Source: Diphasiastrum complanatum
Lineage: Eukaryota; Streptophyta; Lycopodiopsida; Lycopodiales; Lycopodiaceae
DNA length: 64,000 nt
NCBI GenBank assembly: GCA_029204225.1
Contig: CM055106.1
Coordinates: 48,127,337-48,191,336 of the forward strand
Direction of reading: 5' to 3'
Position numbers and translations under genes: made by a program. Below the pieces are notes generated by a model. That model saw nothing but the letters and a program-made list of their open reading frames with translations, searched no databases and was not told where the DNA came from. Below, one piece after another: positions 9,940 through 56,395 of the stretch; position 1 is the stretch's first letter; every line of letters begins with the position of its first letter.

Positions 9940-10366
9940 TCATGAGTGCAACAGTCATGCCACTCCGACATGCAGCTCCTGATTATGTCCTTCTCATATG
10001 GATGGACCTTGCCTTAGATGATAGTGATGATGACGGTGACACTTTGGGACACAGAGACCACAAACAACCTACTATTTAGACTCAGAGAGTTCTTAGAGCC
10101 ACAGTTCATGCGATCATATATCTCATAGACGACTATGACGACGTCATCAGCAGCACATTCCTCCTCCAGCAGTTGCAGCAGCTCCTATCACATCTTTCTT
10201 CATAGTTCAGTAGCAGCCATACTTGATTACTTGATGACATCATGTTTGCCTTTGCAGTCATTGTTTAGATGCATTCTAGTTTAGCAAATATACTTAGCGT
10301 ATTTTTTCTTTACTGCTTCGGAGATGTTTCATACGCTCCCCATTGTATCACACACTTGACATGTAC

Positions 10367-10370
<4 letters not shown>
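9940..10370 (+). mobile_element. TC-LINE 3' end, 5'-truncated copy
   Basis: It aligns with the C-terminal and 3' untranslated part of the TC-LINE copies at 10.4-13.5 kb and 48.0-48.8 kb: the acidic DDSDDDGD stretch near 10017-10040, and the block CTTGACATGTACT near 10352-10366. The terminal stem-loop is deleted, and the copy runs directly into a TC tract. The next TC-LINE copy begins on the other side of that tract in the same orientation. Confidence 0.65.

Positions 10371-10413
<43 letters not shown>
10371..10413. repeat. (CT)21 microsatellite between two TC-LINE copies
   Basis: This is a pure CT tract joining the 3' end of one LINE copy to the 5' end of the next. Confidence 0.98.
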
Positions 10414-10415
<2 letters not shown>

Positions 10416-11440
10416 GCAATGGTGATCCTCCCCTCCTAGTCCGCCCTCCTTCACTGCTCCTCCATCAGCACCCTCCTCCATGGCCCGTAAAACCAGGGGG
10501 AGCCCTTGCTCCCCCAACCCCCAACCCCCCCCCGCCCCCCTCCATCTCCTCCTACCTCATCCTGCGCTCCACCCGCTGCTGCCCTCCACCCTACCCCTGC
10601 CCCACCCGCTCCAACTGCTGCACCCGCTCCACCTGCTACCGCCCTCCCCCCTACTTTTGCCCCACCCATTCCACCTGTTGTCGCCCTCCAGCTCTCCCCC
10701 TCCACCCCACCTGCTGCCTCCGCCCCACCTGAGATCTCCCCTGCTGCCTCCGCCCCACCCATTGCCTCCGCACCTGCGGCCTCCACCCCACCTACGGTCC
10801 CCGCCCCACCTGCTACCTCCGCCCCACCGGTTGCCACCCTCCATTCTACCTCCTCCACCCCTGCTGTTGCCCTCTCTACTGTTCAAGAGCTTCCCCATAC
10901 TGCTGTGCAGCAGGCACCCCTTCCCTCGCCACACACTAACATCGCCCCCCCTCTCCTCGCTTCCCACTCCGGCCCCCCTCCTTCATCTCCTGTCCCTTCC
11001 ACTCCCATCCCTGCCAATGCTGCCCTGGACACCCCCTTTCTATCCCACGCAGATTACACGACCTCCAAATCCTTCGAAAAAATTTTAGCCTACCAATTGA
11101 AAGAGCTGAAAGCAGATGTACAAACCTTGAAACTGGAAATCATACATCTACACACAGAGAACCAACAACTTCGGACAGAAATGGATAACAAGTGTGCTTC
11201 CCAGCCGCAAGCAAAGACAATGACGAAGTTACAAGACCTGGAACAGCAGTTGAGCCAACACAAAGAATCCACCAGAACATGGGCTTCTACTCTCACCAAT
11301 GGTAAAGGTACCAACCCACCTTGGACAGCTGATGGCGGAAGTAAGTCTGCCCCTCTTTCATCGTTCATTTCCGCTACTCTTACGGAAGAAAAACTTCGAG
11401 ATTCCAAGGCTCTCAATATTAGGGTACGAGGCATTGTCGA
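10414..11440 (+). pseudogene. TC-LINE ORF1: proline/alanine-rich, coiled-coil protein
   Basis: The open frame from 10506 begins with about 180 residues of low-complexity Pro/Ala/Ser/Thr sequence. It then has a heptad-rich coiled coil (LKELKADVQTLKLEIIHLH, about residues 195-255) and the start of an RNA-binding-like segment (SKALNIRVRGI). This is the general layout of LINE ORF1 proteins, which bind element RNA. At about 11440 it is fused in frame to RT by loss of the ORF1 C-terminus, the whole endonuclease and the RT N-terminus. A homologous ORF1 piece at 22446-23010 keeps the C-terminal segment absent here. Confidence 0.7.
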
Positions 11441-12756
11441 TGGACTTCCCTTCCTCCTAGCTCGTCAGGCCATTATTGAGGAAGCTAGACACAGGAAAGA
11501 GCGGGTCTACTATTGTTTTGTTGACTTTAGGAAAGCCTTCGACTCTGTTCCACGTTCCCTCCTCATCCAACGGCTTCGTGATCTCGGCTTTTCTACTGAC
11601 ACGATCTTGGCAGTGATGGCACTATATGAGAGAGTCCTTGGTTGTTTTCGGAGTGACATCGGCATCTCAGATCATATCTGGAGCACTATTGGTGTTAAAC
11701 AGGGTTGTTCTCTAACTCCAACCCTGTTTGGGCTATATCGATGAGCTTGAGAGAGTCATTGAGGGATGTGGTGGCACAGGTTGCAGATTAGGGAGTATCT
11801 TGATTGCTATACTTTTATATGCAGATGACGTGGTTCTCCTATCTTCTACCAGAAAGGGATTACAGCGACAACTCGACAGCCTTCATGCTTTCTGCAGTAG
11901 ATGGGGACTAGGGGTTAACATATTGAAAACCAAAGTTATGGTTTTCAACACATCGAGAGCTTTTATGCAGCGCCAAGAACTCATCTTCAACAGGCAGCCC
12001 TTGGAGGTTGTATCTTCCTACACTTACCTTGGCGTACTCTTTACAGGCCCTATCTTTGGTATGCGACAGGCAGCTTCCGCCAGACTTGGGAAGGGCCACG
12101 CGTCACTTGTCCAGTTAGAGCGTTTCTGTTTCAGACGGTTTATTCGGGATGCCCCGAGTAACTGCCAGCTTTTTGACACTCTCGTTACACCCACAACCCT
12201 ATATGCAGCAGAAGTATGGTGTACGGGTCTTACATCATCGGATTGGGCCCATATTTCACGACTGCAGGTTCTCATGTTATCCCGGATGATACGGGCTAAG
12301 CCATCCGTCCCACACCAAATTATACTGACAGAGTTCGCGGTTCCACCCATACAGCTATCCGCCATCTTCCAGCTTATCCTATATATCCAGCGTGTCATGT
12401 TGTTATCCACAGACGAGCAGAGATACATACAGATGGCACTCGCTTCATCACGACACCTTTATGACCAGGGACATCGACTATCATGGTTCTCTCAGGCCTC
12501 CCAGCTATTGGACACACTTGGCATATCTATCACAGACCTTCCATCAGGCACCCATGAGTACATCAGACGCTTTCTTTATAGAGTATATCTGAGACGGACA
12601 TGGCAGGGGCAGCTCGGGGTCGAACCCGACTATTACAGGACACACTTTTTGGAGCTAGAAACAGCAGGACTTCCAGTTTTGCCACACTACCTCACCTCAG
12701 GACTGTCTCACGGGCTTCGGTTTCTGTTGGGCCAATTTCGAGTATCTTCACATTAG
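11441..12756 (+). pseudogene. TC-LINE reverse transcriptase
   Basis: Non-LTR RT motifs occur in order: IIEEARHRKERVYYCFVDF, RKAFDSVPR (11526-11560), VKQGCSLTPTLFGLY (11695-11735), the catalytic YADDVVLLS (about 11818-11845) and KTKVMVFN. A 2 bp deletion near 11735 shifts the frame. The C-terminal region ends at TAG 12754-12756, where other copies read CAG in SSHQLAIET. The RT N-terminus and endonuclease are deleted in this copy. The motif set fits L1-like LINEs. Confidence 0.9.
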
Positions 12757-13320
12757 TTGGCTATTGAGACTGGACGCTTCCAGTGCACCCCGCGAGAGGA
12801 GCGGATTTGCCAGTTGCGCTCATTAGCTATGGTCGAGTCAGAGGAGCACTTCCTTTTCACATGTCCAGTTTACTATGAGATGAGAGGGCAATATCATTGC
12901 CTTTTTCGTCAGACACATGTTACACTGCGGTCCCCTATCTCATACGAGGACCCCCGTTGTGTGGCACTTATGCTACGTGAGATGTCCCTCTTACGACAGG
13001 ACCTATGTCAGGCAGTTCAGCATACTTACCCAGTCACCCAATCCCAGATTACATCCTTCTTCTCACGCAGGAGATCACGTTCTGATGCGGACATGACTGA
13101 CAGCGATTGCGACGACATTCCCAGACCCAGGACGCAGAGACGACGTACCACGCAGCCTCAGGCGACCATGAGAGTTACACGTCCCACCAGGCCTCCTAGA
13201 CAGAGACGCACTACATATGCTCATACTCATCGACGACACCAGCATGTTCCAGCGCTTATTGATGTTACAGCTCGCATTACATCCTTCTACAGCATCAGCA
13301 CAGCCCTGACTTCTTGACAT
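12757..13320 (+). pseudogene. TC-LINE C-terminal zinc-finger and basic tail
   Basis: This continues the RT frame after the nonsense codon. The segment REERICQL..ESEEHFLFTC corresponds to a CX2C...HX4C finger, seen intact in the copy at 23.7 kb (ICQLCTL...EDHFIFRC). Here the second Cys is Arg. A serine/aspartate patch and an arginine-rich tail follow, ending at TGA 13315-13317. Confidence 0.8.
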
Positions 13321-13516
13321 GGATACATATGATTTTCATGCACAGGCTTTTTCATTTATGTATTTATCTTAGCCTGTACCAGATGTTTTTTTCTTTATTA
13401 CAGCATTGGAGATGCTTTAGACGCTCTCCTATTACTACTTTTGTCTTATATGCCTTTTGGCATGGAAAAGACATTAATAAAGCTTTCCTCTCTTTCCTCT
13501 CTCTCTCTCTCTTCTT
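13321..13516 (+). mobile_element. TC-LINE 3' untranslated region and TC tail
   Basis: It contains the perfect stem-loop ATGCCTTTTGGCAT (13450-13463), AATAAA (13476-13481) and a short imperfect (CT)n tail ending near 13516. The same three elements end other copies of the family. A degraded duplicate of the stem-loop block lies at about 13594-13612. Confidence 0.85.
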
Positions 13517-16199
13517 AGTTAGTTTGGTTTTAGTTATGTTGTTTTGACGGCATTGCTATGTCTTGGTGCCATCCATTTTGATGTACTTGTTCGTCTTATA
13601 TGCCTTTTGCATCTCTGCACATGAAAAAAATCATCATATATAATGTCGAGCCAAATGGCACCATAATAGAGTGCAATGATGTTTGATGAAAAGTATGAAA
13701 ACTAATATACAACTAAGGCTCAGGCTCGTCCTGATAATCCTCATCATCTGAGATTGGCTGACTTAATCAAATGAGTTTGACGGTGACATGCAACTCCTTG
13801 CCTTTGCCTTTGTCCCCACCACACCCCCCTTCTTCTGACTGCCTCCAACCGGTCGCCCTCTCACCTGTGATCCCATACCATGGGAAGGCCCTATAAACTT
13901 AAAGTCGACCTAGCTTACAACTACCTAGAATGCTCCACTCTTTTGAACAAACAATGAACCCACCCCTCGCCCTTCGCGGAACCTCTCGGTTGCCCTCTAG
14001 GCCTACGTGACTTGATGGCTAGCTCCTCCTATGTCTCTGCATAGGGGTCCGCCAGCAGGTCAGATAAGAAGTTCCCCTAACGCTCATCCCCCCTCTTGTC
14101 CTCCCTCACCCTCCACCCACTCCTCTAGTAATCAGCCCCCTCCTCTCCTATCTCTTTCATGCGCGCACGACCAAATGGGCACAATTATGGTTTTTCAACA
14201 AAGAAAAGAATTTGACAGAAAACAAATCGTGATTCTCATGTGCAGATCACGATTCTCAAGTGCAAATCGCAATTCACTGCAACAATGAGTTGGGATATAG
14301 TCCTACAAACACTAGCATAGTGCTTATCATAAAAACTTCACCTAACTCCTCTCTCATCACTAAAAGCTTATTGTGTTTCCACTAAAGTGAAAATGGTCAT
14401 TTAAGACTTCAGCCACTATTATGAAAGAAAGTAATATTCATTTCGTAGCATCAAGACAAAAATCCTTCGATTTGCACTCATTGTTGGTGGTGAAACATTA
14501 CAAGAGCACTCAACAAGACCGATGCAAATTAACATAAAACCTTTACTGGTATATAGTGATAGTAAAATCTCCTAGATAAAATCGATTTTGACATAAAGGA
14601 ACTACCCTGAAGTATAGTACAGCCAGTATGAGTGTTCACTCCACGTATGAGAGTAGAACAAGATATCGCATAAATAAACCAGGACAAAGTTTGACTACAA
14701 TAAGAGTTTCACTTTTAGCTTTGACTTGATGTTTTCACTAGCATTTCTCCAGTATACGCTCTACAATTCTAATAACTGAACCTTGTAAAACAAGTCCTTT
14801 GTTCAAACATAGCACATTACTAAGAAAAAATAAAATACAAAATCTAAAAGAACATTTGATCTTTTCAAATTATTCTCACTATGATGCACACTGGATTTTG
14901 ATACCTCATAGGTGGCCAAACTCTAGGGACACTAAACAAAAAACAAAATGGTACCCAATTTTATCTTGAAAACATCCTACTTGATGAATATGGCATGCAA
15001 TACATGGACTTTCAAGCTTTAAACTACTTGAATACAAGTAAAACAACGCTATTTTCAAAAATCAACTTTTCGAGTGATAGATTTTGAATTGTAGTATAGC
15101 ACAACAACATATTGCATCATGACGATTATAAGATGCAACTTTAAGGTGCTCAAATTTTTTCTCAAGATTATGCACAATTCTCCTTGGTTTGCTAGCCTAA
15201 AGGATTTTGGAAGATTTGAGAGTAATTTTGCCTTGAGACAAGCATCCTAAATGTCTAGGCTCATTTTTTCATTAAGACAGGCATTTTTTTAAATTTATGC
15301 CTATTCACCTGATGATCCCTGTTATATAAGTATGTACATGGAATAGATAACCCCTTGCTAGGGAAGTGATGCAAAGTTTATGTGGAGATGATTCCATTGA
15401 TACTTTGTCGGAATTCACAAATAGATATTCGAACAAGACTTTGACATCAACTCGATGCCTGACTTTCTCGCTTTTGCTTTGTTTTACTGGAATGTTATTC
15501 GGTTGCAGCACAAGCTCGACAATTTACCTTGTCAAAGCTCAACATGGAGATCATATGTACATTGTTGCTCTTGTTGTTTGAACCACATACTTTGGGGATT
15601 TACGTCCTCTTAGTTCATAAAGTAGCTTATTATTGAGTTCAGCATACTTAAAGTACTTTTTACAAGAGATTGGTGTGCAAGTCCTACAATGGAACATTGC
15701 TAAGCATCTCCTCTGAGAGAATATCAGCATTAATAAGTTGGCAAATGACCAGTAGAGAACCTATTTATACTACTCCAAAGGCTACAAACTACTAAATAAA
15801 TACATACGATGGAAAGGATCCCAAGAGGATCTGTGTCCAACAGCTTGGTCAGTAGGGTAGTAAGTCATAAAACTACTAAATAAATACATACGATGGAAAG
15901 GCTATTATAGAACGTTGAGGTCGCATAGCCAATGAATGAGCTACAAGTATCCTGTGCTATTCAAATTGGCTCATTAATTCGATTTAGTGCTATTCAATGA
16001 AACACTAGTCCAAAGCTTTATTAATGTCTTTTGATGCCACAAAAGCATATCAGATGAAGTACGTGTCAAGTGTGTATAACGAAAAACTGCAGGAGCATAA
16101 AAAGGTCTCCAAAACTAAAAATGCGTATAGAAAAACTAGACTAAGGAAAAAAAACCTGGAATAAAGACATACAGACACAAGTAGAAAAGCAATGCCACT
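13517..16199. other. Unrecognised intergenic DNA
   Basis: No supported gene is present. Short frames here have no recognisable motif. A 32 bp sequence is perfectly repeated at 15786-15817 and 15870-15901. The segment 13790-14170 is C-rich; the rest is AT-rich. Confidence 0.6.
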
Positions 16200-17005
16200 A
16201 AAAAATCATCATCTGATATGTTGAAGGTGCAGTCCCAACTTCCAAGAGGTATATCTGGAGTGGGTCACTATTGTTGTTGACATGGATGTCAAGTATGTGA
16301 TCTATGAGTATGTGACTGTAAACTGTGTCGAGTGCCTCTAACTGTCACATGATGATGCACTCAACATCTCTGATCTCTATGGTGGTCCCAAGTAGGAATA
16401 TCAACTTTATCATCAGACTCAAAATCATCACAAGATCTTCTCTAGCTTCTCCTAGAGAGGAAAGACACGATCATGAGCTGTGAAGTAGGACGCTGCGACT
16501 GCACATAGCATGCATACACTGCTCCGAAGTAGTAACATCTCGCAAATCATGAGAGCAACACGGCATGGATAGACAGAGAGTCTCTGAAGCGGCAAAAGAA
16601 TCCCCCCTCTAATCTCATAATAAGGGACATCAAGAAATAAAGTGATCCTCAATTTCAACCTCATCAAGAATACAAAACTAGCAAAGCCTCTCCGCCCGGG
16701 GGATGCCCTGGAAGCGACCCGTCTCAACCGCAAGTTGGTGTGAAGAAACTCTGAGCTGGCCCAAAAGTAATCTAAGACCATGTCAAAGACCAGACTCCAG
16801 ATAACGAGGTAGACGCAGCAAACCAACTGTATCCAACTCCAAGAAGTGAGTCCGATAAAAGTCAGGTTTGATCCCCAACTTGCCAAGAGAACAACCCTGT
16901 TTCACCCCTATACTAGTCAAAATCTGCTCAAAAATACCTAAGTCACCTCTGAAAGAACCCAAAACCCTCTCATATAATGCCATGACTGCAAGCACCATGT
17001 TTGTG
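16200..17005 (-). pseudogene. 5'-truncated TC-LINE, minus strand
   Basis: On the minus strand it starts at VLAVMALYERVLGSF, mid-RT, directly behind a (CT)n tract. It includes SIGVKQGCSL and jumps by deletion to the C-terminal region (KLGIKPDFYRTHFLELDT, then SSEFLHTNL and the zinc-finger region). It ends with the acidic tail homologous to 23.9 kb. Frame changes and stops are frequent. The 3' untranslated end is not clear. Confidence 0.8.
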
Positions 17006-17020
17006 GAGAGAGAGAGAGAG
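17006..17020. repeat. Short (GA)n tract between two minus-strand TC-LINE copies
   Basis: This is (CT)n on the minus strand. It is the tail of the copy at 17021-17180 and also the left neighbour of the truncated copy below it. Confidence 0.9.
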
Positions 17021-17180
17021 TTTTATTAGTGGCTTTTCCATGCCAAAAGGCATATAAGACATCTTGGATTTTCTGAGTACACATGATAGGAAAGAATGTT
17101 TCCCCACAAATTGAGAATGTCTCCCCACAATCGAAAGCCGCGATCGTAATTAGACTTTGTCTAGAACTTGGACCATTGCA
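17021..17180 (-). mobile_element. TC-LINE 3' end, minus strand
   Basis: The minus strand reads the family stem-loop ATGCCTTTTGGCAT (17040-17053), GGAAAAG, AATAAA and (CT)n in the conserved order. Only the last ~150 bases of the element can be recognised. Confidence 0.75.
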
Positions 17181-21000: not shown

Positions 21001-23130
21001 CACGGACCTACACAAAGTATTGGACCGGAGAGAGAGTCACGGCTTAGAAATTGTCTGATCCGTGAGTACTTGGTTGCGTGGCACGGTAGACCTCTCACTG
21101 ATGGGGACACCGTGCACGCTTTGTATGCACAATACCCTTATTTTACCATCACGGGTGATGTTCCTTGAGGAGGGAAGGAATGTCATGTATTTATATTCAT
21201 GCCTCGTCGAACTTGTAAATTGTAAACTGTAAATATTGAAATGGCTCACACCGGCCTGTGGTGTTTTGTGAGAAAATGCAAATAGCAGATTTTTGGTAAC
21301 TTATTGTATTGGGTCTTGATTTAGAGGCTGTCGAACTAACCTCCTAAAAAGTAGGAGCATTGACCTATCAACATGACATGTCATATGCTCATTGGGACAC
21401 TTGGTCCAGTGCATAAGTAACATGGGTCGGACGGCCCTAATTGCTTGAAAAAGTATCAGGGTACTGCCAAGTGGCAAGTGTCACTTATGCATGGGGCTCG
21501 CCATGTGTCGACGTTAGGAAAGGGTCAGGGTTAAGTTAGTGCTTGAGGATTATTGATAAGTGAACCTCGAGAGAGGCATTCCTCATCATAGTCTATGCAG
21601 CAGGTGGCTGGGAGGAGACTTAGCAGTAGTGCTCTTATGTGTTTATGCTTGTAACTTGATATGTACTTTCTAAAGTGGATATTTGGTGCGCACTTTGGTG
21701 TGCTTTGGGTTTGATTCAGATAGCTTTGTGAGAGATACTTATTGCTCAAATTTCAATGATTTCATTCTTCATAATCCATATGTCTGATGATAATATCATG
21801 ATATGTAAACTAAAAAAAACACTGAATAGTAATATATATTATGATCAATGTCAAATGAATCCGAGCATCTCTCGGGATGCCACTGTATCTGCCAGTCTCA
21901 ATGGCTAGCTGGTGAGAGGAAACCCGAAACTGACCCATCACTATCCGCAGTCTGTGTGAGATAATATCCACTAGATATCCGGATGTCATAACTCATGGTT
22001 ACTTTCTAACCTCTCTTGGCTCTGAGCCTCCTCCAAACAAGTGTTGTCAAGTGTAGTCTCTCTCTCTCTCCATCATCCACCCTATCCATAAAACTATCCA
22101 TAAAAATGGTGACTCCATGATTCTTGGTAACTACCACACTAACATGATTAGGCATGTTCTCGCGAAGCTATATGGCACCATCCTTCAGTCTACAATGAGT
22201 TCAGAGGCGGAATCTCGGAGATTACGTGCTTTGGACAGGCAGATTTTCGATCCCATTATGCCACCGTTGACCGTATCTTCACACTTCGGGCTTTGATTGA
22301 GGAAGCCAAGTACAAGACAGAGAAGGTTTATTGTTGTTTGTGGACTTTAGTACATTTGGAGCACCATTGGGGTGAAGCAAGGTTGTTCTCTTTCACTAAT
22401 TCTTTTTGGGTTATACATCGATGAGCTAGAGAGAGTCATCTCACAGTGCGGAGGTTCGCACCTTCAAAAGCTGGATACTTCCATTGAAGAACTCAAGAAC
22501 AAAGTTGCAGTTATCAAAAGTGATACTGGAACAACACCATATGGCTGTCCAATCATGGGCAGATGGACTTAAAGGTTCGTCTACAGTTATCTCTCCACCT
22601 TCGCCTTCACCTTCACCTTCATTTATTTCAACCACGTTCACTGAGAGCCATCTGCAAGAGCACAAAGCTCTCAATGTTCGTGTTAGAGATATTCTGAACT
22701 CCCAAAATGTTGTTGCAGAAGCTGATAAGTTTTTGGATGAAAATCTTTAGCACCATAGCGCAGGTATGGACATTACCTGGCGACCTAAGAAGGACCCGGA
22801 TATCCGCTTCACATCAATGTCTCACCGGCGTGAAGTTTTGGGAAAGCGATCTAAATTGCGAGATACCAAAATCTATTTGGAGGAAGATCTTACTTTCATC
22901 CAAGTCCAAGAACGTAAGAAGGCAAGACAAAAAGCTTTGTCAACTGGCAAACGGCTTATCTATCGTGATGGTAATTATCATATTTGTAGATCGTAAGCCT
23001 ATAGTTAATGAGAGTCTTAACTCTATTATGTGAAAAATAAAAAAACGCCCAAAAAGCGTTTGTGAGACAAAGTCTGAGCTGGAGAAATGAAGAGATGTCC
23101 AATTGAGCATGTAAATGGTACACGTACCAT

Positions 23131-23224
<94 letters not shown>

Positions 23225-24337
23225 GATTCGAGCTAAGCCATCGATTCCACACCAAATCATCCTTGTTGAGTTTGCATTCAACTTGATGCCATCTTTCAGC
23301 TTATTATTTATATATACATAGTCATGGATTTTCCAGCCACAGATTCTAGATATTCCCAACTGGCACTTACATCCTCGCGACATCTCCACTTCTCAGGAGT
23401 ATCATCTATCATGGTATTCTTAGGCCTCTCGCTTACTTGACACATTTAGCATTTCCATTGCACATCTTCCAGCTAACTCCCATCAGTATATCCATCATTG
23501 CATCTATTGAGCATATATTCAACGTACCTAGCATGGTGAGTTGGGTCTCAAACCTGACTTCTACCTACTTTACCTCACTATCTAGATGTTGGTCTCTCAC
23601 ACCATCTCAGATTCTTATTGGGCCAGTTCCGAGTTTCTTCGCATCAGCTTGCAGTTGACAGGACGTTTTCAAGGTATCCCCCGTGGATTTGCCAGCTTTG
23701 TACTTTGGACGAGGTTGAGACCGAGGATCACTTTATCTTCAGATGCCCCATATATTATGAGATCAGAGGGAGATTCTTTTGCCTCTTCAGAGACTCTCCA
23801 AGCACATTACACTCTCTCATCACCTGTGTAGATCCACGTTGCGTCGCCCTCATGATTCACGAGATGCTACTTCTTCGGAGAAGTCTTTGCCATATACAAC
23901 AAAGACTTGCCTCATAGCTCCAGAATACCTCTTTCTTCTCCAGGAGAAGACCTCATGATGATTTCGAGTCTGATGATGAGATTGATATTCTCACTCGGGA
24001 CTAGCATAGAGACTACTGACGCCGAGTACTTAGAGCTATACGACACCTCGAGACCACATGTCTAGAGGTCACATATCCATCATCCTCACCAACGGCAGCA
24101 ACAGCGTCCAAATACCCACTCCAGCTATACCTTCTAGGACGGCTCACATTACATGTTTCTTCAGCAGGATCTAACGATCCCTCAGCATCGTTGTTTTTTA
24201 TTTACATCTATGTATCTTTAATCTAGTTATATGCATTTGTATTTTCGGAGACATTTCTATGCTCCCTCAGTTTTCATGACACACTTGACATTTACTTCGT
24301 TTCATATGCCATTTTGGCATTTAAAAGACATTAAATA

Positions 24338-24413
<76 letters not shown>

Positions 24414-46594: not shown

Positions 46595-49483
<2,889 letters not shown>

Positions 49484-53270: not shown

Positions 53271-54293
53271 CACAGAGTGTGGATACACTTCATCAAAACT
53301 ACCACAAATTTTAATCTCACATCTACTTATCCAAGATAAGACATCACAACTAGATAAACTCCGACATCCTTAATAAACAAAAAAGCTTCATTGATGTTTT
53401 TCTTGGGTGCCAAGAAGCATGTAAGACTAATGAAGTATATGTCAAGTATGTTCCAAACTAGTGGAGAACGATATATACGTCTCCGTAACATGAATATGCA
53501 GATAAAAAAATAAATTGAATTATCTAAGCTGATACATAAAAGTCTGACTATCCAAATATGAGCAATTATGAGAAAACATGAAGCTCTCAATCAATAGATG
53601 CTGGCATGGTATCCTGCTAAAGTGATAGTAAGAGAAAGTCCTGATGAATTCTGGAGGAGGTGTAGCATGTGTGTATAACTATCATGATCTCTAGTGAGGA
53701 CATCATAGAGTAACCCTGGAGACGGCTGGTATAGTATGTTGACATTGTCTTTGAGTGTGATGTTTGAAAGGGATATCTATTTCAGCTTTTGACTCAACTA
53801 TGCCTGCGTTCTAGGTCGTCTCTTCTTACAAGAAAAAGAGCTATTATGTTCTTGTCTATGGTGAGCGGTGGTTTCTGTTGGGCTACAAAACTCTCTCCAC
53901 AACCTGAACATCTCTCATATCATCAGAGCAACACACTGCTGACCTCATATGTCATAATAAAACTGAGTGTGATTCGGTGATCTCGAAATAAGTATCAGTA
54001 TCGCCCTCAGATCCCATAATATATTGGTCACCTAGAGAGAAAATGCTCCTAGGACTACTACTCCACTAGAACACAATTGGCAAATTCACCTGTCTCGAGG
54101 GCTACCCTGGAAGCAGCCAACTTCTATCTGTAGCTAGTGTGAGGATACTCTGAATTTTCCTTGTTTATCAAAGAGCATGCGACAATCCAAGATGAAGGTA
54201 CCACAGTGGAACAATGTCTCCATGGGGATCAATATCAAGAATGTCATGGATAAAAAGTTGGCTTAACACCCAACATACCACTACAAGCTCTAT

Positions 54294-54722
54294 GAAGATA
54301 TGATATGTTGATCACCTGTCAGATATATGTGCATGAGTACCCTCTGGGAGATGAGATATAGAGATGACAAATGAAGATATGATATGTTGATCACCTGTCA
54401 GATATATGTGCATGAGTACCCTCTGGGAGATGAGATATAGAGATGTCAAATGAAGATATTATATGATATGTTGATCACCTGTCAGATATATGTGCATGAG
54501 TACCCTCTGGGAGATGAGATACATGTGCATGAGTACCCTCTGGGAGATGAGATACAGAGATTCCAAATGAAGATATGATATGTTGATCACCTGTCAGATA
54601 TATGTGCATGAGTACCCTCTGGGAGATGAGATATAGAGATGTCAAATGAAGATATGATATGTTGATCACCTGTCAGATATATGTGCATGAGTACCCTCTG
54701 GGAGATGAGATATAGAGATGTC
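54294..54722. repeat. 79 bp tandem repeat, about five copies, within TC-LINE sequence
   Basis: The unit begins TGAAGATATGATATGTTGAT. Copies begin near 54294, 54373, 54452 (5 bp longer), 54566 and 54645, with an extra ~35 bp partial unit near 54520. On the minus strand each unit codes for LPEGTHAHISDR-like residues, matching the LPSGTHEYIRRF part of the LINE, so LINE coding DNA was tandemly amplified. Confidence 0.88.
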
Positions 54723-55099
54723 ACATGTGTCTTGTAGGCGTGATGCCTACAAGCACCATGATGAGTGATCAACCTACTCATGAAGTCCTCCAGAGGATGT
54801 GACTGCTATCCAAGAGTATATCTGCAGACTTCATTGCCACGATCACTGCCTACTATCACCACCAGTCCCAAAAGCCATAACCCTATGTATTTAAATAATC
54901 ATCCAAAAGATAGCCTCTAGCTATAGGGGAGGCATCACAAACTTTGCTGAAATGATCTGGCGTGGGACAAAGGGCTTATTGCATGTCATCCTTGATGGCA
55001 TACCTACCAAGAGAGGTGCAAAGCTAGTCCAATTAAATCATGTGATCCCCAATCCCCATACCTTTGTTGCATACATGATTGTACTATAATATTGAAACG

Positions 55100-55516
55100 G
55101 TGGCCATTACTATTTGAATCCCAAAATGTGCTTCCTTAAGCATGACCTGACTAGAGGTAAGTGTTCCTTCCTTAGATGTTGTTTGTCTCGTGCTAAATCT
55201 AGGGCCTTCAACGACTGCACCCAAAATTCAAATATGTAATATTGAAGAAATTATCTCTAGTGGTTGGCCATCCAAAGTGAAGGTGTGTCTGATGTGGTTG
55301 TAGGAGTCGCTATGGTGTCAAAAAAATGGCACTAACTATTTGAATTCCGAATGTGCTTCCTAAAGCATGAGCTCTCCACAGTGACTACAGATAAGAGTTC
55401 ATTCCTTAGATGTTGCCTGTTCATGCTGAATCTAGGGCCCGTAATGAGTGCACCCAATTATGTATATGAAGGGACTATCTCTGGTGGCTGGCCATCCAAA
55501 GTGAGGTGTGTCTGTG
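55100..55516. repeat. Two-copy ~220 bp tandem duplication
   Basis: Segments at about 55100-55300 and 55328-55516 match over blocks such as TTCCTTAGATGTTG and GGCTGGCCATCCAAAGTGA. They lie within the decayed minus-strand LINE. Confidence 0.7.
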
Positions 55517-56395
55517 CATGAAGGAAGGGGATGTATTAAAAACCATCACTTTGGCCTTCTTTGTGTTGACCTCCAAACCCCCCGTTCTTTGTGAAAAGCA
55601 TGTAAAGCATCAATATGTCTCTGCCTCACTCAAGGGAGAGACAAACCCCACGTCATCATCATACAACAATGTAGAGATCGGAATCTCTCCCAAAATTGCA
55701 CCTCCCTAATCACCGCCTCCAACTCATCAACATATATGCCCAACAACGTAGGCAGGAGTGAACACCCCAGCTTGACCCCAATAGTACTAGTGATAAACTT
55801 CAATGTACCATCTATGCATCTTAAACGTTCCATCACTCATATAGTGCCATCAATGCCAAAACAGTCTTTGAGGGGAAATCGGGTCGCCATTTGCTGTAAC
55901 TGGAACCTCTCTGTCAGCTGAGACTCTCTGAATACCCAACTCTCAAGTATCTAGTGCATTATTCATAGAGGATTAGATTCCACCAAATGTATGTCTCTCT
56001 CTAGTCCTGTCTTCCTGGTATCAAAATCCCCTAATAGTAGGACTTGACCCCTCTCTGAGTAAGAGATGATGTCTTCTGAGATATCTGAGTATGGTGATAC
56101 CCCATCACTACAAGCATAAGAGGAGGTTTTCGTGCACAATAGTATACACCACAATGAATATATCCTGCTCCAACCCAATATTCCTGCCCATAGTCCTTAT
56201 CTACAAGTACCTAGACTTCTCGTCTCGCTGCACAATAGAGAATGAGGTGTAGAAATTCCCTGGACATGCTACTCCTCCTAACCCCCTGCCTCCTATTGAT
56301 CTTGCCTCCCCTCTGCATAGTGGTGACCAAGTGTAGCCATGAAAGGCAGGTAACTGAAGGAACTAAGCCATAGCGCGATACTCACATTACATCAG

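Follow-up and report, generated by a model that had tools for sequence, protein, structure and literature searches.

A LINE copy that lies directly between two (TC)n tracts raised the question of whether its family inserts preferentially into TC microsatellites. The window examined here, the whole stretch of 64,000 nucleotides that was analysed, corresponds to C15:48127337-48191336 of a 1.74-Gb assembly consisting of 5,176 contigs. It contains a 5'-truncated copy on the plus strand (copy C; 23222..24340), comprising part of ORF2 and a 3' untranslated region (UTR) with a stem-loop. This copy is joined at its 5' junction to a (TC)43 tract (23135..23221, plus; 43.5 copies) and at its 3' junction to a (TC)35 tail or target tract (24341..24411, plus; 35.5 copies of CT), and both tracts are 100% pure and of one polarity. 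The same insertion was present on contig C1697, which is probably the other haplotype of the locus, with an element 100% identical to that of C15 and flanks of (TC)50 on the left and (TC)31 on the right. Tract measurements, repeated on this second contig, upheld the initial annotation, in which the copy was placed directly between (TC)43 and (CT)35 in the same polarity. As the insertion recurs on C1697, the join is not an assembly error of a single contig. The lengths of the tracts differed between the two contigs.

Four further copies in the window begin at a TC tract. Copy A (10414..13497, plus) extends from the start of ORF1 through the reverse transcriptase (RT) and the C-terminal part to the 3' stem-loop and a pyrimidine tail followed by (TC)7, with the internal stretch between ORF1 and RT missing, and it is separated by (TC)22 (10370..10413, plus) from a 3'-UTR remnant of another copy that has no stem-loop (E; 10317..10369, plus). 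Copy D (47993..48792, plus), which is 5' truncated and has a 3' stem-loop, has (TC)55 at its 5' junction (47883..47992, plus) and, on its right, a compound microsatellite of (TC)44 running into (CA)27 (48805..48946, plus). Copy B (16012..17005, minus) is also 5' truncated but has no TC tail; directly upstream of it is H (17006..17061, minus), the 3' end of a different copy. H terminates in (TC)7 and lacks TC at its 5' side. The 5'-truncated copy F and its (TC)7 occupy 22057..22455 on the plus strand (tract, 22057-22070). An old degenerate copy, G (53385..55930, limits approximate; minus), had no visible TC tail. The initial annotation had listed the copies at 10414, 17005 (minus) and 47993 as starting abruptly behind TC, and a tract was found before each. 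However, the first seems to start at the ORF1 ATG, 5 bases past its tract, and so does not appear to be truncated, and the tract before the second belongs to the 3' end of another copy. Two other arrangements were observed in the window: at 21858-22070, a single (TC)7 has plus-strand copy F on one side and a family fragment on the minus strand (21858-21959) on the other, and a 79-base tandem array lies within copy G (54213-54806).

The family is a non-LTR retrotransposon with an ORF1, judged by eye to be proline rich and then coiled-coil-like, and an ORF2 with an RVT_1 domain. A domain scan of the frame of a reference copy (L082) detected RVT_1 alone at E values of up to 0.1 and found no zf-RVT, which is a feature of ordinary plant L1 elements, in that frame. 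In two relatives with longer frames (P0019 and P0021), an APE-type domain, PF03372, precedes the RT. Genomic copies match the part of these relatives that bears PF03372, suggesting that the family has the APE-type endonuclease of the Tx1/L1 group, an assignment drawn from the relatives' domain and partial matches of the copies. The nearest solved RTs by sequence were those of R2 and human L1, a match that does not fix the clade. A protein of the clubmoss Diphasiastrum complanatum was 96% identical over 47% of a 341-residue query from copy A, which makes this species the probable host. Relatives in ferns and a gymnosperm, compared as proteins, were 39-43% (P0019-P0026 and Ceratopteris P0029) or 41% (Taxus P0073) identical, and Adiantum P0015 showed 51% identity across 22% of the query. 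No relatives were detected when viral contigs were scanned. At the 3' end, a short stem-loop is followed by AGACATTAATAAAGC, or by a variant of this sequence, and by a pyrimidine tail. The stems varied by subfamily with pairing kept (tatgcc/ggcatg, atgcca/tggcat, gtgcc/ggcac, gtacc/ggtac and gcacc/ggtgc), so that, by comparison of the stem sequences, the stem-loop is retained through paired changes as in LINEs with stringent 3'-end recognition.

Genome-wide, the 3'-end pattern TTTTGGCATNNAAAAGACATTAATAAAGC with at most one mismatch occurred 5,870 times (2,872 forward and 2,998 reverse), and the reversed control pattern did not occur. The first 30 matches listed, all exact and consecutive on contig C1 (L031-L060), served as a sample. 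Twenty-seven of these 30 ends passed directly into (TC)4 or longer; at L032, 57 bases intervened before (TC)35, and no (TC)4 was present at L033 or L058. In place of the poly(A) tail of an ordinary plant L1, pyrimidine or TC tails were found in the 30 sampled. A Fisher test on the tails counted 28 TC tails, with L032 included. At copy D and at L030, L049 and L053, the TC tail passed into (AC)n and then into other DNA, which points to pre-existing compound microsatellites as the targets. Different tails were observed in a pair of near-identical duplicates (L006 and L007; C16:43.76 Mb and 44.21 Mb), one having (TC)52 and the other (TC)76, a CCCT-type stretch and (TC)64.

The 5' ends were scored in two sets of loci. 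Automatic calling from nucleotide coverage or from the starts of protein chains had proved too noisy, because a frameshift, an internal deletion or divergence among subfamilies can pass for a 5' end. Set one consisted of 19 boundaries from the protein-search table with a query start of 8 or later, with rows that looked like duplicates left out (C15:26462722, C2818:32227, C3452, C802 and C19:15014126). Comparison with the reference copy indicated that 10 of these continued upstream and that one (L078) appeared to mark the border of an LTR element, leaving eight real ends. Five of the eight abutted TC tracts of at least 11 units (L065, L066, L072, L077 and L081, the last separated from its tract by about 30 additional bases), and TC was absent at L068, L074 and L075. 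Set two was the 30 loci of the 3'-end sample, 10 of which had a 5' end within 1.5 kb; the other 20 were unscored, either because the element extended to the limit of the retrieved sequence or because the start was ambiguous (L033). TC tracts were abutted by 3 of these 10 ends (L049, L050 and L055, the last assigned by eye from ORF1-like sequence after (TC)35) and were absent from 7 (L031, L032, L039, L048, L053, L054 and L059, the limits of L054 and L059 being the points where protein similarity begins). Overall, 8 of 18 scorable ends abutted a TC tract and 10 did not. A tract of at least seven units ending within 40 bases upstream was found for 0.3% of window positions (both strands) and 0.7% of those in the loci, so that the observed proportion was about 60 times the background (binomial p, 2.4e-13). 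The reference copy itself, which was excluded from the count, begins at a (TC)7 that is preceded by unrelated sequence. The initial annotation had proposed that TC is left on either side of every insertion, which is overstated, as only 8 of the 18 scorable 5' ends have the tract. It had also taken a lack of (TC)n in most 5' flanks as grounds for refuting a TC preference; most of the scored flanks do lack it, yet those that have it far exceed the background.

An ordinary plant L1 with zf-RVT and poly(A), two copies of which are 94% identical, was used as a control from the same genome. Copies that looked like duplicates (C1505, C1163, C783, C2872, C317 and C22:42780823) and fragments that fell short of the 3' end were left out. 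The control had A-rich tails at eight of nine 3' ends and (AT)n at the ninth; TC was found at none of these nine and at none of six 5' ends of truncated copies reaching the 3' end. One copy had AAAGCTCTT on both sides (L088 and L092). The comparison with truncation points of other LINEs that the initial annotation had suggested gave 0/6 against 8/18, a contrast of only p = 0.066 with so few control copies. These results support a strong association of the ends of a plant LINE with sense-strand (TC)n, at many truncation points, that is unlike the pattern of the control LINE. Repeated zf-RVT matches were also seen on contigs C895, C3077, C3692, C4778 and C429, about 19.7 kb apart in several of these, inside open frames of up to 7,233 amino acids in a tandem array.

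Strand specificity was examined at a motif of the RT region, TATGCAGATGAYGTGGT. Tracts of (TC)8 within 30 bases upstream of this motif were found in 43 rows, representing nine sites, seven of which were independent, each with a different cut point; C27, C802 and C3452 looked identical and were merged for this count. The corresponding search for (GA)8 upstream of the motif found none (one-sided p, 0.008 versus (TC)8). The sequence to the left of the tract was the 3' end of another copy at four of the seven sites (L035, L097, L099 and L100) and was unrelated at the other three (L065, L098 and L101). Chance or a general richness in TC was ruled out as an explanation by the background rate, this strand test and the control L1.

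In many cases the TC target is itself the tail of another family member, with the copies standing head to tail, a point that the initial annotation had missed. Downstream of the 30 sampled tails, family sequence within 1.5 kb was in the sense orientation in 14 cases and antisense in 1, once self-matches between a locus and its protein had been discarded. An earlier, smaller library had given 13 sense and 1 antisense (p, 0.002). Clustered loci are included in the chain count (L035-L037 and L057-L059), every junction of which is distinct. Seven of the 14 sense neighbours began 60 bases or less from the tail, five of them behind TC (L035, L041, L042, L056 and L057) and two with no (TC)4 between (L033 and L058); at L050, an ORF1-like start followed the tail at once. 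In five copies with a seemingly full-length start, the element began immediately after a TC tract and 3 to 5 bases ahead of the presumed ORF1 ATG, and every one of these starts was preceded by 3'-end or 3'-UTR sequence of another copy; one of the five, L050, was located through that upstream end. A stop codon fell within the first 60 codons in four of these five ORF1 frames. One speculative and rather doubtful possibility is that an element with almost no 5' UTR is transcribed from a promoter supplied by the TC tract or by the copy upstream, in which case TC targeting would combine site choice with promoter capture, comparable, though dispersed, to the telomeric arrays formed by LINEs such as HeT-A.

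We consider it likely that this abundant non-LTR retrotransposon directs its insertion to (TC)n microsatellites by TC-directed target-primed reverse transcription and that it also targets itself. The endonuclease would nick the GA strand within a TC/GA tract, and the freed 3' end of the GA repeat would anneal to the element's UC-rich RNA tail, the DNA counterpart of which is seen in the copies, and would prime cDNA synthesis, with the RT holding the RNA through the observed 3' stem-loop. Synthesis may halt anywhere, and the cDNA end would then be linked to the portion of the tract lying upstream, in keeping with the many truncation points seen behind TC. Pairing of the nicked strand with the RNA tail would produce TC of the same polarity on both sides, variable truncation points and chains. 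Because each new copy ends in TC, older copies become targets, and the head-to-tail chains that are observed could have been built up in this order. At the 5' ends without TC, about half of those scored, the upstream tract was presumably lost at joining; these 10 of 18 ends, together with 3 of 30 tails (L032, L033 and L058), lie off the pattern and count against TC-directed insertion, as do window copies B and G with their missing TC tails, the two adjacent head-to-tail pairs at L033 and L058 that have no (TC)4 between the copies, and the modest 5' contrast with the control L1.

The main rival for the chains is template jumping. LINE RTs can jump end to end between templates, and an RT that reached the end of one RNA and jumped to the UC tail of a second would leave TC between head-to-tail pairs without any TC target, and a stop inside the tail would leave a lone 5' TC. 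The head-to-tail order, the TC between copies and the position of TC to the right of tails and at four of the seven RT-motif sites would all follow from such jumps. Jumping explains less well the unrelated left flanks beside TC at the other three sites and at copies C and D, L016 and L049. In addition, the stem of the upstream 3' end at L022, L081 and L100 differs from that usual for the downstream subfamily, as if it came from another subfamily, and the passage of TC into (AC)n on the right is left unexplained. We therefore regard template jumping as an unlikely source of the pattern. Less probable still is unspecific insertion, in which the TC tails would come from the RNA alone and the 5' TC from general TC richness or from slippage of short target duplications. 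The tract lengths that differ between haplotypes imply that slippage is active, and this explanation accommodates the 5' ends without TC; set against it are the excess over a background of 0.3-0.7%, the presence of TC and not GA in the sense orientation at the RT motif and the absence of 5' TC from the control L1. Misjoining of contigs inside long (TC)n tracts, which are difficult to assemble, is hardly credible as the source of junctions that are identical on C15 and C1697 for copy C and on C27, C802 and C3452 for one RT-motif site.

TC-directed insertion has a counterpart in animals. Kibi, a fish LINE of the Tx1 clade attributed to Kojima and Fujiwara (2004), reportedly targets (TC)n. The present family resembles it in its (TC)n association, with TC at its ends far above background (27/30 tails and 8/18 5' ends, against 10/18 5' ends without TC), and differs in its plant host and in its head-to-tail chains on its own tails. 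In the portions of the literature consulted, an APE-type endonuclease is expected for the Tx1 clade (PMC4640811), and a KibiFr1 is named in Takifugu with no target given (PMC6515669). The same portion of the former source describes Togen, a NeSL-related LINE of fish with a (TG)n target, and some HERO families that target microsatellites (PMC4640811); these share with the present family a microsatellite-directed habit, but their clades have a restriction-like endonuclease, whereas PF03372 of the present family's relatives is APE type, and the repeat motif targeted is another one. The control L1 is likewise a non-LTR element with an RT and differs in its A-rich tails (8/9) and its lack of TC ends. 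A plant L1 lineage of maize and sorghum shares a 3' stem-loop kept through paired changes, and the part of that report consulted makes no mention of TC targeting for it (PMC3747384). The literature searched, in which subscription journals are thinly covered so that absence is weak evidence, listed no microsatellite-directed LINE in a plant and no LINE paper for D. complanatum. Microsatellite-specific LINEs are already known, and what appears to be new here is the plant host and the insertion into the element's own tails. Insertion into TC repeats and into its own tails by a family whose 3' ends number in the thousands would help to account for how such microsatellites and chains of LINEs have spread through a large lycophyte genome. 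It would also allow the way in which an APE-type LINE chooses its target to be tested in plants.

An element of another class was also seen beside a TC tract. In the window, (TC)33 (2755-2822) directly adjoins the start of an LTR-like repeat, with a second repeat from about 9250 and copia-type ORFs between the two, and this LTR element may have landed at a TC tract as well.
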